Shown here piece by piece: positions 1,829 to 50,176 of a DNA stretch of 64,000 nucleotides. A model generated the notes under the pieces. It did no database searches. It was given only the letters and a program-made list of their open reading frames with translations, and was not told where the DNA came from. Positions within the stretch are counted from its first letter, which is position 1. Every line of letters starts with the position of its first letter. The DNA lies in NCBI RefSeq assembly GCF_963675165.1, contig NC_087381.1:2542001-2606000 (forward strand), in the 5' to 3' direction. Both the position numbers and the translations under genes were made by a program. This DNA is from Halichondria panicea (Eukaryota; Porifera; Demospongiae; Suberitida; Halichondriidae).

Positions 1829-12507
<10,679 letters not shown>

Positions 12508-40412: not shown

Positions 40413-42469
<2,057 letters not shown>

Positions 42470-42779
42470 TAGATAATGTAGATCAGCTCTATTCTAGATG
42501 TTTAACATAATTATGCAGGTGTGTCTCACTGGATACAAGGGCATGCATATGAGTGTGATGACATCATAATACCGCATATAGATATATAGATCAAGGAAGG
42601 ATTTTACAGTTATTTTATACAGGCGAACTGGACTAGATGATAATGGTGAACCATTACATAATGGAATGTATCGATATTTGTGGAGCAATGGACCCAGAGA
42701 AACGATAGAAATTGCAGACCACAGTTTTGAGGAGCACTTTGGAAAGCCCATTCCTTCACTGAAAAAACAACTGGGTTAG

Positions 42780-43150
42780 TTTAACCTTAATGGGTAAATG
42801 TACCTTTCAACCAAAGGGTTAAAAAAACCAGCGAATAGTAAAGTAACATTTTGGAGTTTTTTCAACTGTAATAGATTAAAACTACTGTAGTTGTCAAAAG
42901 TACCTTACTCGTACAGTAAAAACTTCCAGCACCGTGTTAAAACAACCATTTGTGATTGGTAATAAAAATGTAAAGGGTTAAAACTTCCACAATGGTCAAA
43001 TCACTTCTCCTCATGCAGTAAAAACTCTATAATTGTGTCAAAATAACCATTTGTGGTAGGTAATAAATATATAATTGGTTAAAACTACTGGTGTGGTCAA
43101 TTCCTTTACTCATGCAGTAAATCCTCCAGCACTGTGTCAAAACAACCATA
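42780..43150. repeat. Left subterminal tandem repeats of the transposon
   Basis: About three and a half degenerate units of ~100 bp carrying GTTAAAACT, CATGCAGTAAA, CCAGCACTGTGTCAAAACAA and GGTAATAAA. Subterminal repeats bind transposase in known CACTA elements; that role here is inferred. Confidence 0.75.
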
Positions 43151-43171
43151 AATGTTCTGATAATTATGAAA

Positions 43172-45859
43172 TTATGACATAAAAAAGTGTTTCAATGTGA
43201 TATAGCGAAGTCCATCCGAGAGTATGTGACTGTGATACACATTTCTATCCAATAATTTGGTATAGATGGATTGCTGGGATGTTATTTTAATGACATAAGC
43301 ATGATAATGATCATCGAAGTACAGCATATCACACAACCTGACAAGAAAAAAAAGCAGATCACCACCAACTACTATCAATTCGTCGATGTAAGCAAAACAG
43401 GGATCAAGGCCATCAGTTCCTACAATAATGTAAGCATTGTTGCTTTTGTATTGAACTCTATCTTGACGAACCCAATTAGGACGATGTAGCACTGTATCCA
43501 TAGTAATATTAGACACTTCCCTAATTATGTGATCTTGAATGTCTGATCTTTCATTTTTAAACAAAGTCGGCGATTTTGCAGGACCACATTCGAAAGAAGA
43601 ACAAATAAGTCTAGATGTAGACATTTCGTAACACATTAATCTTTGGTGATGATTGGCTAATGATAGTGTAATGTTTTTGAAGCTAGATGTAATAGTCGCT
43701 TTTTTGAAAAAATATAGCTTTGCTTCATGGCGAATAGTCCAGCTTCTGACCATTGGACCAATTTGTAGGATTTGGGCAGGGTAATGCAGAAGGAAGTGCA
43801 TTTTTGGAATGAAGCGTCCTGTGTACAAGGTGATGAATGCTGTATGGTGCTCTTCAATCAGAATCCTCAGACTGGATGCTGTGTTTTCTGATGCACACGG
43901 ACAAAGCACGATGTCCACGATCTTTCGCAAAAGTAAAAAACACTTCCAATAACCATCCCCCTCAGGTATCTTATCACCAATAAGGAAAGGTAAGATATAT
44001 AGCAACAATAACATTTGAGATGAAGAGCTACGCAGTGATCTGTCAGTTTGAAAGTGACTACTCGTAATAGGTATTGGTTTATCGCAATCAGAATAACCGT
44101 AGTTAAAATCAACTAGTCTTTTGTTGTACTGGTCAAGAGTTAATAACTTTTCAGATATACAGTGTTTCAGCAAAAGCTTGATTTCCATTGGTGCAATACC
44201 TTCAAGAATGTCATGCATGATGTCATGCGGCAATCCACCACCGAACATAGAGAAATGAGTGACATTTAGTAATGCTGATCTGCGGTTTATACCATATGTT
44301 TTTGAATAATGACTCCTTGTTGGCCCTACTAATTGCTTGCACTGCTCTTCGTGAAGTGCAAGACTTCGATCTACCAAGCCAACACATGTAACATACTGTG
44401 ACATCTCATCATTTTTTAGCAAACAAGTTCGACAGAAACGAAACGAGAAGGAAAAAGAAAGCTTGAATCCACCTAGTTCATTACTTGCAAGATTGTCAGC
44501 CAAAAACGTAAGCAAAGCACCCTTAAATACACGCTCAGTCCCATTTACAAGTACACTAATGCCAGTAGTTGCTAACACATTCAAATCACGAATAAATGGT
44601 TCCATGATAACATCTAGCCCATGCTCTTCTAAAACAGGCTTTGAACAAACAATCACCAAATTCATAGCTCTCAGTGACGACCGAAATTTAGGATGAATGT
44701 TTCCCAATGAAAAGAAAAAAATACCCACTTTATGCTTCTTGATATGCGATCCCAAGGGATTACAAATTTCCAATTCGTCAAAATATGCAATAATTTGTAA
44801 GGCATATGGATCACTTGAGAATAAAGGATGACTCTTGAACAAATTTCCATCACAAAAATCTTCAAATATACCATCATTACGAACTCGTAACGGAAAATCA
44901 TCTATTTGCTCTATAACGGTAGGGTCTTCTAGAAGGCTCTTGAGAGTTGGTAAAAGGGGAACGTAATGATATGAACTATACCTAGAGACAAAGCGAGACT
45001 TTTCCCCTGTGAATTGTCTGACATACTTTGGCGTCCCAACTTGCACTTCCACTGGTTCCTGCATGTAGTTTGAGTGATGCACTTATATAGTATTAGCAGT
45101 CAATTACTGATTGCACATAATGAGTGCAGATATACATACATAATTATTACAAGGGTATTATGTATAATTAACACTTACAATAAAGTTAAGCTGTTCTTTG
45201 AAATACTTGTCCTGCTTATATTTTGTTTCAAGTCCAGTGAAGGGATGACCTATACCATTAAGAGGAGTGTCGAAATCAAAGTCATTAGGGTTTAATCCCT
45301 TATCTGCCAGTTGAGAACGAATGCCAGCAAGTATCATTGATACGGTTTCATCATATTGGGTTATGCTGCTGTCAATCATATCATTGACTGCTACTTGAGA
45401 CACATTTCGTGTTTCCTTTAGCTTGAGAATTAGTAGGGCACTAGAACGGCATCGAATTTTTGTGTCTGTTCCAGTAAGCCGATTAATGTCACTAGAAACA
45501 AACTCTGCAGACGAACAATCGTACTGTTAGGTGTAATAGCTTCGCAGCCACAACATATCTACACTGTACACACCTGGAAGAGGAGTCATTCCACTGTGAT
45601 CATCACCACTGATCTCAGGCTCTGTTTGTGGAAGGAGTTGGGGGGTCTTACGTCTGATACAAAACTCTGGATGACGCCTGTAAACATGGGAGTATAGGGC
45701 AGAAAAACTTTTTGAAGTTACGGTGCAGCCATTGATTCCACAGGTAACGAGAAACCTAGGATCATTAGAATGAACCAATCGTAGATGGCTTAGTAGCAGA
45801 GCAATAGTTGGTGGTTCGAATGAACACAAAGGACAGTGTTTTTGCCTCAAACTTGACAT
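43172..45859 (-). CDS. En/Spm (CACTA)-type transposase, three exons, 832 residues
   Basis: Minus-strand exons 45859-45574, 45504-45179 and 45058-43172 join in phase to 2499 nt. Exon 1 codes two C2H2 zinc fingers (CPLC...HLRLVH and CGINGC...HVYRRH), likely DNA-binding. Exon 2 has a conserved-looking LKLKETRNVSQVAVNDMI helix region. Exon 3 (about residues 205-832) carries YFDELEICNPLGSHIKKHKV, HDIMHDILEGIAPME, DGYWKCFLLLRKIVDIV and YTGRFIPKMHFLLHYP, wording I associate with animal En/Spm-type transposases. Acidic residues in these blocks are candidate catalytic positions but the triad was not assigned. The gene starts ~310 bp from the divergent SAM-protein gene and ends ~415 bp inside the left terminus. 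No stop or frameshift is seen. Confidence 0.85.
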
Positions 45860-46173
45860 TGAAAAATCATGTGCTAATTTAGGAGGGTTAATTAAACCTC
45901 CTCTGGGTTAGGTAACCTATGGTTAAGGGTTAGGGTAACCTAGGGTAGGGTTAGTATAACCTAGGGTTAGGGTTAAATTCATATCATGTGATTCTGGTTC
46001 AGGTGATCCAGAGTGCATGTGAGCTCTTCACAAACATGTGCTAAAGTCCAACTTCTGTTTAAAGTTAGTACTTTTTGCTTCTTCTCTCAAACTCTAACCC
46101 TATATAGATCTATCTAGCTATATTTATACTGTTAAAAGGAAAGCAAGTACTAGGACATCCTTTTGATGAGAAC
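45860..46173. promoter_or_regulatory. Divergent intergenic region of the transposon
   Basis: The 314 bp between the two start codons must hold both promoters if the gene models are right. It contains a degenerate run of GGTTAGGGTTA / CCTAGGGTAGGG words (about 45903-45975), telomere-like in wording but irregular. No TATA box is certain. Confidence 0.45.
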
Positions 46174-48047
46174 ATGAGTTCAATATCCGTGGAAGCGATG
46201 AAGGTGGATGAAGTTTCCCAGATGCTGAAAGACAAGGGTGTTCCTGACAAGTTTTGTGAAGTGTTTGAAGGTAATATATTTTTTGCTACAGCTAGCATAA
46301 TTGCAAGAATTGTTTGCATGTGTTCGCCTGTATTTTGTAAGCCATCATTATTTTACTCTTTTCGACAGAAAACTTTGTTGATGGAGAAGCGTTTAAATGC
46401 ATAAAAGAATCTGACATCAAGGAGATGGTGCCTCCAATTGGAATTGTGAAAAAGATTCTAAGGATTCAAAACGATTGTTTCACCTTACCTGCTCTACCCT
46501 CACCTTCTTCTCTCAATCCTCTCAATCCTGAACGTGGTGATGATGATATCTCGATCGGCTCAAGTTCCTCTATCTGGTCAAGTTCTGAGTCGCCCCCGTC
46601 GGAAGCTAGCACCATGCCTAGAGCACGCGACAGAGAAATATTGACTATACCAACTTCTTGGCGTCCTGAAATCCAGGATTGCATAACGGATGAAATGCTA
46701 GATATTTCTGCGAGAAACGAGATAGTACGCACCCTTGTCAACATTCTCTTCACCTGTTACTCTTCCCCAACTCGGGCGCAGTGTTCTTCCTTAGCTCGAA
46801 AACTTATTTTACAATACGGCTTCATGAAGGATGACCAGGGGAGTGGATATGTAAGTTAATACTTGGTTTTCAATTTCAGGTGGTATATAATTATTTTTCT
46901 TTAGCAAACCTGGGAGGACAAAATGGTTGAGCGTGTAAGAAATGTGATCAAATGTGCTCGAAAAAAGAGAGACAGAGAAGATTCTTCTTGTCCTAAACAG
47001 AAGAAACAAAAAATGCCTTTAAAACGAGGCCAGCTTCTCCGGAGGTACCCAATTGGAGTGACTAGACCAATAGAAGACATTGGAAGCTTTGGTGAACATA
47101 TGAAAGCGTTGTCAATAGAAATGGAAAAGGCTAATCCCAGAGACACTATCATTCTTCCCTTGATGAAGTCTACCTACTCAAAAAGAAGAACATTTATCGA
47201 GGCTGAAGCAGTGTCTGTGCAAGAGGTACTGAAAGAATGCCATGCAGCACTAAAACGGCCAGCTGCTGTAAGTGTTAAAATTAACAAGTAAAATTAGTAA
47301 GTTTTTTTCTTACCTTATTATAGCTGGAACAGGAAATGGGGCTAGTGACGGGGTGTCATGATGTCAAGCAAACCTTCATTAATAACTGGAAGTTATTTGT
47401 TCCAGCAATCATGAGGTATGCTAGGAAGAATAAGGGGAAAAAAGGACTCTCAACTATATTTGAAACCCTTGATGACACTGGTAAAGGATTACAGTAACGA
47501 GAGTATAGGTACTTAACGCATTCTTTTTACAGTTGAAAGGCATGCAGATCTTGGCCCATTGAGCTTTTTAGGAGTTTTAGTGGCTAAAATGCTAGATGAT
47601 GCCCTTATCTATCTTTATCAAGAATTTTCAATGGTAAGATTTTTTTCTCATTTTGTATGCACTTTAACCTTGCATGCGTGTATGTGTGGTGTGTATTCCC
47701 TACTGACCTATTGTTTTGTTTTTCCCATGTAGGATACATCTCTTACAGATGCCATTCAAAGAGAGCCCGTTAGAAACTCCCCAAGAATTATTGCTCTTTG
47801 TGGCGCAGAAATAACACAATACTTTGTCGTTGTTGAGAGAATTGTTTTGTGTGAAGCTCCATCGATCCCAAGTGCTCTGTTCTATACGTTTTCAGCCTAC
47901 TATGTGTTTAACTTGGAGTACCCGAAAAAAGCTGCTGGAATATTTTATTTCCTACAAGACTATATTCTTGCATATCCTGATTCACTTAAACGGCCTGCTA
48001 CATACCTGTCTGTGGTCTCAGATATCAAAAGCCAAGTTAAACGATAA
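46174..48047 (+). CDS. SAM-domain partner protein of the transposon, six exons, 504 residues
   Basis: Exons 46174-46270, 46369-46850, 46905-47267, 47324-47480, 47533-47633 and 47733-48047 join in phase to 1515 nt with a TAA end. Residues ~6-70 form a sterile alpha motif: KVDEVSQMLKDKGVPDKFCE, then ENFVDGEAFKCIKESDIKEM and GIVKKILRIQ. A Ser-rich linker, a helical stretch (about 105-160), a basic segment (ARKKRDREDSSCPKQKKQK, likely nuclear localisation), and an unrecognised C-terminal half (WKLFVPAIMRYARKNKGKKG, LSFLGVLVAKMLDDALIYLY) follow. SAM domains mediate protein-protein oligomerisation. I recall similar proteins annotated as SAMD3-like in fish and cnidarians; that needs a search. By analogy with the two-protein En/Spm system, it may bind subterminal repeats or recruit the transposase. 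Confidence 0.82.
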
Positions 48048-48179
48048 CAATCAACCATTTCACTATGTAAGTACGTTATAACTATTCACTATAGACCAGC
48101 TAGCTATAATAATTATTAGCTATGTGTATAAGTACGTTATCAGTTTATTGTTTTTGTGCAAATATAGTTAGTATACCCA

Positions 48180-48800
48180 TTCATGTGTACTGTTATAATT
48201 ATGGCCGGGTGATGACTGCTATGACTAGCTACTACTCAAAATAACGGTTGTGCTATAGAGCCTATGGCACATAATATTATTATGGGAGGTTGCTAGTTAC
48301 TTCAACTTATTATATAGCTGGGTATTGTTACCTATTTGAAGTTGCTACAACCATTACCAATATGCTCAAAGGAACCTGTGTGGCTGGTTGCTACAGCCTA
48401 TAGCTGGGTATTTTTACCTATGGGAGGTTTCTTTATACAACCAATACCAAATATACCCTATGTGTCTGATTATTACAACCTATGTATAACTGAGTATTTT
48501 TACCCATGGGAGTTGATACAAACCATTACCAATATGCTTAAAATACGTTATGTGGCTGGTTGCTACAACCTATATTATAGCTGGGTATTTTTACCTATGA
48601 GAGGTTGATACAACCCATTACGAATATGCTCAAAATAACCTATGTGGCTGGTTGCTACAACCAATATATATCTGGGTATTTATACCTTTTGTGAATGTGT
48701 TGGAATAACCCATCAAGCTGTAGGTACATCCGACCTATGTTTTTAAATGTTGTTGTAACCCAGCGAGTGGGTCATCTGAATTGCACATGTTTTAACCCAT
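48180..48800. repeat. Right subterminal tandem repeats of the transposon
   Basis: Five or so units of about 85-110 bp with TGTGGCTGGTTGCTACAACC, TATAGCTGGGTATTTTTACC and CCATTACCAATATGCTCAAA. Unrelated in sequence to the left-end repeats. Confidence 0.8.
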
Positions 48801-49001
48801 TTTTCTGGGTTATTATGAACCATTTGTTTTTTCAGTGTTCCTACCCACCTCGTGAGGTGCTATTTGATTACATTAAGGGATGCGCTGACAAGGTACGTAT
48901 GCAGATTCAGTAAATAGTTTTCATATAGGAGAGTTGAATTAAAAAGACACAAGTTGCTTTGATAATAGAGTAAGGCATCGATAATCAGACACAATGGATG
49001 T

Positions 49002-49083
49002 TCAGACATGCACTCATTCTAAGGAAACAAGCAGTGTTTTTATCACTGCTTGTTTTGTTAGAATGAGTGCATGTTGTCTGACA
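49002..49083. repeat. Foldback element in FMO-2 intron 2
   Basis: Arms CAGACATGCACTCATTCTAA...AAACAAGCAGTG and their complement around a short loop. Non-coding hairpin, absent from the matching FMO-3 intron. Confidence 0.8.
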
Positions 49084-49434
49084 TCAACTCTACCGTATAT
49101 ATTATAGTGGGTGTAAACTACCCAATTAAATAGTTTGTATCCTAAATTTTCACACACCTTAACAATAGTGACATATGACCTATTGCGTAAATAACCGACT
49201 GTAAACGACAATGCATTACTATACCTATAATGTGTATACAGAGTGAAGTCAGAGATTGGATCCAGCTCAATACAACAGTTCGTCGAGTGACATTCGATTC
49301 TGTCACTTCTACTTTCACTGTAGTAACAGTATGCAATGGAGCTGAGAAGGTGGAAAACTTCGACTATGTTATAGTCGCTTCTGGTAATAGCCTGTATAAT
49401 TATAGTGACGTGTGTATATATGCAGTGCTAATAA

Positions 49435-49857
<423 letters not shown>

Positions 49858-50176
49858 TAGGCTCAGGATCAAGATTTGCTATATTGTATAATTATACTAT
49901 GGCATGCAGGTACGGTGTGGGGAGTGTGACCCTCTCTTGGCGTACTAAACCAATGCCTCCTTTCAACTGGCCAGATAACTTTTCCACTGTCCCTCTTCTT
50001 ACTCGTGTTGAGGGTTCGAAATGTTTCTTCAAAGACGGTTCCTCAAAGAAAGTGGATGCCATTATTCTGTGCACTGGATACAAGCACCACTTCCCTTTTA
50101 TGAAAGAAAGGTATACATTAAGTTTATGTACTGCCGTGAATTATATACAGGTAATTATATACATTATATACAGGTA

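Follow-up and report, generated by a model that had tools for sequence, protein, structure and literature searches.

Structure of the element

The DNA analysed here is a stretch of 64,000 nucleotides from the sponge Halichondria panicea (NCBI RefSeq assembly GCF_963675165.1, contig NC_087381.1, positions 2,542,001 to 2,606,000 of the forward strand), which is called the window over its whole length. The animal origin also shows in the genome, where Wnt stretches score above the cut-off (10 matches, the best with 189 bits), compared with none in 14 control genomes. Positions 42757 to 48837 of the window are occupied by a DNA transposon that carries two genes, one encoding a transposase and the other a protein with a SAM domain. 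The element is very probably a transposon of the CMC (CACTA/EnSpm-Mirage-Chapaev) group in which the SAM protein is an integral partner. A sequence-only reading of this DNA had proposed a complete two-gene CACTA-type transposon with a SAM partner, and this description has been borne out by the ends, the target-site duplication (TSD), the empty site, six genomic copies and the rebuilt genes.

The terminal inverted repeats (TIRs) are identical over 14 bp (CACTG...CAGTG), with a mismatch at base 15. The right end of the transposon reads TTTTTTCAG, which resembles a splice acceptor. The boundaries and repeats are located as follows.

42757..48837: whole transposon, 6081 bp, with identical 14-bp inverted ends, a 2-bp TSD and five more full-length copies at 99.67-99.82% identity
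42757..42770, plus strand: left TIR, CACTGAAAAAACAA
48824..48837, minus strand: right TIR, CACTGAAAAAACAA
42755..42756: left TSD, TT; reading frame restored at the empty site
48838..48839: right TSD, TT; flanks ...CCTT / TTCC..., reading frame restored at the empty site
42905..43149: left subterminal repeats, 2.4 copies of a 101-bp unit (Tandem Repeats Finder)
48312..48691: right subterminal repeats, 4.2-4.3 copies of a unit of about 86-92 bp (Tandem Repeats Finder)

Both genes can be rebuilt by joining GT-AG exons, and no internal stops are met in either. They are arranged head to head and transcribed outward from the centre, the transposase gene lying on the minus strand (3 exons, 832 aa) and the SAM protein gene on the plus strand (6 exons, 504 aa). 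The protein lengths, exon numbers, freedom from stops and identical 14-bp CACTG termini that had been claimed earlier are all confirmed. The exons and the catalytic residues are distributed as listed here.

45574..45859, minus strand: transposase exon 1, with a C2H2 zinc-finger pair at residues ~9-63 (profile match to GLI fingers, E=0.0014)
45179..45504, minus strand: transposase exon 2
43172..45058, minus strand: transposase exon 3, with the catalytic residues and the stop
Codon starts of the exon 3 residues: D298 at 44779; D392 at 44497; C413/C416 at 44434/44425; H625/H629 at 43798/43786; E649 at 43726
45860..46173: gap of 314 bp between the two divergent start codons
46174..46270, plus strand: SAM protein exon 1, with the first half of the SAM domain from 46204
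46369..46850, plus strand: SAM protein exon 2, with the second half of the SAM domain to ~46460 (domain confirmed via relatives)
46905..47267, plus strand: SAM protein exon 3, after the SGY|xTW junction, with the basic KKRDREDSSCPKQKKQK stretch
47324..47480, plus strand: SAM protein exon 4
47533..47633, plus strand: SAM protein exon 5
47733..48047, plus strand: SAM protein exon 6, with the conserved C-terminal region and the stop

The 314-bp gap is presumed to act as a bidirectional promoter. Inside it, at 45905-45975, about 3 copies of a GGGTTAGGGTAACCTA-type unit (GGGTTAGG-type repeats) are found, which are telomere-like.

Copies and recent mobility

The exact 14-bp end has 20 matches in the genome, compared with 6 for a reversed control pattern. 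Twelve of the 20 are the termini of six full-length elements of 6081-6091 bp, namely the window copy and five others, to which the identity of 99.67-99.82% given above refers. Duplications of 2 bp surround five of the six copies, the exception being L021. All six retain GT-AG at the internal splice sites. The transposase frame is open in five of them and is broken in L021 by insertions of 4 bp and 6 bp. Copies lacking the SAM gene, which the sequence-only reading had named as an observation that would speak against it, were not encountered among these elements: the gene is present in each of the six, with its frame open. Two copies on C11, L024 and L025, show zero differences over 6085 bp and lie in the same orientation 1.7 kb apart. 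Their duplications differ (TG and AA), and they are therefore separate insertions. The transposon family is recently mobile and autonomous-looking, with both genes open.

The other 8 end matches are solitary. Their number is close to the 6 of the reversed control, and perhaps most of them are due to chance, apart from L026, L031 and L027-L029. L026 resembles the right end of the element (80.6% identity over 170 bp), and L031 is a relative of the element. The loci L027, L028 and L029 (C1:14.06M, 14.27M and 14.37M) have the 14-bp end in common, followed by a different sequence in which they are mutually similar; they are perhaps another element family with an identical terminus.

Classification of the transposase

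The window transposase was aligned with two diverged transposases from the same genome, those of the loci L064 (33% identity to the window protein) and L065 (35%, cut at a frame break). The residues D298, D392, C413-x2-C416, H625-x3-H629 and E649 are invariant in all three and conform to the CMC signature D-D-C(2)C-H(3)H-E, the roles of D, D and E being assigned by motif and not by structure. According to the excerpt of PMC12730594, a C(2)C/H(3-4)H signature is common to EnSpm, Mirage, Chapaev and Transib. The window element family also has the 5'-CA..TG-3' termini and the TSD of 2-5 bp that mark the CMC group, the duplication being seen in five of six copies and at the empty site. The features of EnSpm/CACTA elements, a CACTA or CACTG TIR and subterminal repeats, are likewise present, with repeats at both ends. 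The N-terminal part of the protein contains a pair of C2H2 fingers, identified by the profile match to GLI listed above. A fold prediction of exon 3 made without an alignment gave a pLDDT of 33 and was discarded.

A stricter mark of EnSpm/CACTA, a Transposase_21 (tnp2) match above the Pfam cut-off, is lacking, and this tells against a narrow assignment. In Pfam the window transposase matches Transposase_21 best, yet with a score of only 15.0 bits (E=0.014) where the cut-off is 28.6, and the L064 and L065 transposases have no Transposase_21 match in Pfam at E<=0.1. The assignment is therefore to the CMC group, as an EnSpm-like element and possibly EnSpm in the strict sense. The transposase could instead belong to Chapaev, Mirage or another CMC branch, which is considered unlikely. 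This alternative draws on the sub-threshold score, on a signature that is common to the whole CMCT clade and on a TSD of 2 bp here compared with 3 bp in the three fungal EnSpm families quoted in the excerpt of PMC12730594. It is countered by termini that start with CACT and by the fact that Transposase_21 ranks first among the Pfam matches of the window protein. Moreover, SmTRC1, an animal relative of CACTA, combines 2-bp TSDs with Transposase_21 (PMC1636069).

The SAM domain and the remaining body

Taken alone, the window protein shows its SAM domain only weakly in Pfam, with 13.6 bits for the whole protein against a cut-off of 23, and 18.7 bits (E=0.0022), also below the cut-off, for a 67-aa piece. 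When five SAM regions of this genome are combined into a profile, it retrieves from PDB the SAM domains of L3MBTL3 (2.9e-8) and Polyhomeotic (5.1e-8), and also SARM1, SAMD1, ETV6 and Sfmbt. All of the 38 rows to E 0.01 are SAM proteins except 6een (a PPR design), where SAM status was judged in part by name and 2dkz is annotated as hypothetical. The relative at the C16 locus exceeds the Pfam cut-offs by itself (SAM_1, 24.1 vs 23; SAM_2, 21.7 vs 20.5). By these matches the SAM domain is genuine, and it is the relatives that make it certain.

The conservation of the protein extends beyond this domain. The window and L065 SAM proteins are collinear across 521 columns, with 24% identity (E=9e-30), and the alignment includes the SGYxTW motif, the basic stretch and the C-terminal region. 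In Pfam and PDB profile searches, the part behind the SAM domain matched no Pfam family, and its best PDB row had an E of 0.68. No enzymatic or chromatin-reader domain besides SAM was detected in the proteins scanned.

Association of the two genes at diverged loci

Matches to the SAM protein and to the transposase were clustered by position, leaving out the six near-identical copies, which gave 33 diverged SAM clusters and 29 diverged transposase loci; SAM rows from a later search with a C6-derived query were excluded from the 33. With a distance limit of 8 kb, a related transposase is found at 11 of the 33 SAM clusters, where 0.12 were expected, and a SAM match adjoins 11 of the 29 transposase loci. 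These counts are lower bounds, since the transposase searches scored only part of the candidates (54 of 157 and 53 of 164). The corresponding P is 2e-19 on the assumption of independent and evenly spread loci. The loci C1:8.35M, C7:4.00M and C7:6.20M correspond to similar portions of the query and look like copies of one family, so that the true P is larger, and the contrast of 11 with 0.12 still holds. The earlier expectation that SAM homologues lie with such transposases is thus upheld at these 11 loci; at the other 22 the searches gave no transposase match. Opposite transcription of the partner, which had also been proposed, is found in the window and in eight of the 11 near pairs, which are head to head; the other three pairs are on the same strand.

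L064 represents a second family with both genes open, encoding a SAM protein of 542 aa (12 exons) and a transposase of 846 aa (10 exons). At L065 the SAM gene is open (501 aa, 9 exons) and the transposase is frame-broken. In a copy at C1:5.08M the two genes are again arranged head to head and contain stops, and one end, CACTGAAAAAAGGA, is found at 5078010. The locus C16:2067-2069k, a transposase locus with stops in one of four matched stretches and with no SAM match, was read as a forward test, and a head-to-head SAM gene is present there. The genes of the window, L064 and C16 agree in the position of an intron that splits the SAM domain; L065 has no such intron. Between the window family and the C1:5.08M family, the proportions of synonymous and nonsynonymous differences (pS/pN) are 0.77/0.25 for the transposase and 0.83/0.41 for the SAM protein, with synonymous sites saturated. 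As pS is well above pN, the comparison points to constraint on both genes.

These data bear on two other explanations. A chance arrangement, in which a one-gene transposon happens to lie beside a host SAM gene, is refuted: all six copies, each at a site of its own, enclose the SAM gene between their ends, and diverged families show the pairing again. It could also be supposed that the transposon captured a host SAM gene and carries it along as a passenger that plays no part in mobility, as this superfamily is generally known to capture host genes and the SAM fold is abundant in animals. Such a passenger is very improbable here. The partner adjoins transposases that have diverged down to 33% identity (L064), the position of the SAM-splitting intron is common to three loci, the frame is open in all six copies and pS exceeds pN.

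Several observations weigh against the favoured explanation and have to be set beside this evidence. The 22 SAM clusters mentioned above have no transposase match within 8 kb, and 18 of the 29 transposase loci have no SAM match. Among the latter are seven alike loci on C1 (81.6k, 258k, 339k, 624k, 685k, 949k and 13.34M), which may be a branch or subfamily without the partner gene. Both ends have been located only for the window family, and not for L064, L065 or C1:5.08M. In comparison with the decayed C3 copy, dN/dS falls only slightly short of 1 (0.56 for the SAM protein and 0.62 for the transposase). A small family of SAM genes (C6:454225-456164, C1:12729877-12731854 and C15:3101184-3101556) has no nearby transposase match, and the DNA read at C6:454k contains no transposase within ~1.4 kb upstream. 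The second SAM exon of the C6 and C1:12.73M genes is in both cases 94% identical to the C6-derived query; the three genes are candidates for non-autonomous spread or for domestication. Genome-wide, 26 Transposase_21 stretches were found, 25 of them above the cut-off and some in long open frames. All 26 are more than 8 kb from any SAM-protein locus, with a smallest distance of 12.2 kb, and the partner therefore belongs to one lineage and not to all EnSpm-like elements in this genome.

The nature of the second gene also varies. At L067 3556-5100 (C7:4.001M) the partner gene lies downstream of the transposase on the same strand. Its middle region matches the L064 SAM protein (E=4.5e-8); its N-terminus is not recognisable as SAM, having no Pfam match and a single chance-level PDB row (E 1.1), which again counts against a uniform SAM partner. 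The second gene is thus recognisable as a SAM gene in all the families read except that of L067, the one same-strand locus that was read. By eye the L067 N-terminus appears PB1- or ubiquitin-like, a resemblance that is not claimed, the Pfam and PDB searches having given nothing above chance.

Some further features of these loci may be recorded. In the C16 copy the SAM exons are followed by an inserted element with an HTH_psq domain, pogo- or Tigger-like by eye (L068 1786-3577, C16:2.071M). In L065, at about 2807-3031 on the minus strand, a 39-bp exon (GTQSNxPPQAPVP) is present as three tandem copies, every one with a separate intron, which represents an exon triplication. TIR candidates for the L064 and L065 families were no better than chance expectation and were rejected. 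Two scans of viral contigs revealed no relatives.

Possible role of the SAM protein

The explanation that accounts best for the locus, and that is considered probable, is a recently mobile animal CMC DNA transposon with two integral genes around a 314-bp centre, in which the SAM protein is a scaffold partner. The transposase would recognise the ends via its zinc fingers, and would cut and join at the CACTG ends. The SAM protein would be a non-catalytic partner able to self-associate through its SAM domain. Its SGYxTW motif and basic stretch, together with the C-terminal region, may bind the subterminal repeats or the transposase, and the two transposon ends would be gathered into one complex. 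In maize Spm, TnpA gathers the transposon ends; a comparable job would be done here by an unrelated protein. Several of the SAM domains of L3MBTL3, Polyhomeotic, SARM1, SAMD1 and ETV6 polymerise or form rings. The scaffold mechanism taken by itself is put forward more tentatively than the identity of the element.

The SAM protein might instead be integral and regulatory, countering host silencing or repressing the transposase promoter, like VANC of Arabidopsis VANDAL or TnpA in its promoter role. This is rather unlikely, and it is nevertheless the main rival because some of the nearest SAM domains come from Polycomb-linked proteins. L3MBTL3, Polyhomeotic, SAMD1 and Sfmbt, all among the best SAM matches, are chromatin proteins, and their link to Polycomb is taken partly from their names. 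The central region common to both genes would also suit a regulator. Transposon-borne anti-silencing genes are known from the excerpts of PMC10398659 and PMC12730594, and TnpA acts on the Spm promoter according to that of PMC1636069. Against a regulatory role, no enzymatic or chromatin-reader domain accompanies SAM in the proteins scanned, as described above, and likeness to SAM domains is by itself uninformative on role.

Returning to the scaffold, it is possible, with less confidence still, that the lineage as a whole builds its transposition complex with a dedicated oligomerising protein. This protein would have a shared body, with SAM in all the families read but one and another N-terminal module in the same-strand sister branch L067, and animal SAMD3-like proteins would be the second gene of such elements or its domesticated descendants. 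The SAMD3-like proteins of fish and invertebrates presumably have a SAM or PB1-like N-terminus and a conserved region resembling the SGYxTW...basic...YPK region found here. If this were true, puzzling SAMD3-like gene models in animal genomes would gain a simple explanation. Should transposition prove to require the SAM protein, DNA transposition in animals would have recruited a self-assembling module. The young set of near-identical copies with both genes open makes an animal counterpart of the two-protein maize Spm system testable.

The interrupted host gene

The transposon is inserted inside an exon of a host FMO-like gene, the open frame of which is regained once the flanks are joined with a single TT. 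FMO-like domains are found in neighbouring exons both to the left and to the right of the transposon. The gene, at 42299-49860 of the window, is split by the transposon within an exon, of which the two parts are the following.

42582..42756, plus strand: left part of the split exon, from the start of the open frame (not the exact exon start); this piece alone has no Pfam match
48838..48892, plus strand: right part of the split exon, up to the GT donor

Unless splicing removes the element, the FMO-like allele in this assembly is expected to lack function.

Comparison with known systems

The element resembles plant En/Spm in its CACT-type ends and in the combination of a Transposase_21-like catalytic protein with a second protein. 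Plant En/Spm elements have subterminal repeats, and their TSD is 3 bp, compared with 2 bp in the window element. TnpA is not known to be a SAM protein. As reported in the excerpt of PMC1636069, TnpA and TnpD of Spm are both essential, interact and derive from one alternatively spliced unit. The Spm proteins thus come from a single spliced unit, whereas the sponge element has two divergent genes, and its ends are CACTG and not CACTA. The comparison suggests that animal elements of this type use a helper protein different from that of their plant relatives.

Relatives of CACTA that have Transposase_21 and 2-bp duplications have been known from animals since 2006 (PMC1636069). SmTRC1 and the animal TRC elements described there share with the window element Transposase_21, a CXXC motif, 2-bp TSDs (in 7 of 14 copies there) and spliced transcripts. 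SmTRC1 differs in its TIR of 54 bp, which starts with CCC, and in a single coding region with splice variants, and the excerpt of PMC1636069 names neither a SAM protein nor a divergent second gene.

TET/JBP-bearing EnSpm and other fungal transposons likewise combine a CMC transposase with a conserved accessory gene inside the element (PMC12730594). Their accessory protein is a dioxygenase enzyme, the TSD is 3 bp in the families quoted and no SAM protein is mentioned in that excerpt. The same source describes Nuwa, in which a catalytic protein is also accompanied by a separate partner. The partner of Nuwa has a Myb/SANT fold and its transposase belongs to another superfamily. Harbinger/PIF elements follow a two-protein logic as well, with a Myb/SANT partner.

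Among the literature matches listed (titles and abstract starts), none links EnSpm/CACTA elements with SAM proteins or with SAMD3; an earlier description in Repbase or in subscription papers is possible. Accessory genes in CMC elements are already known.

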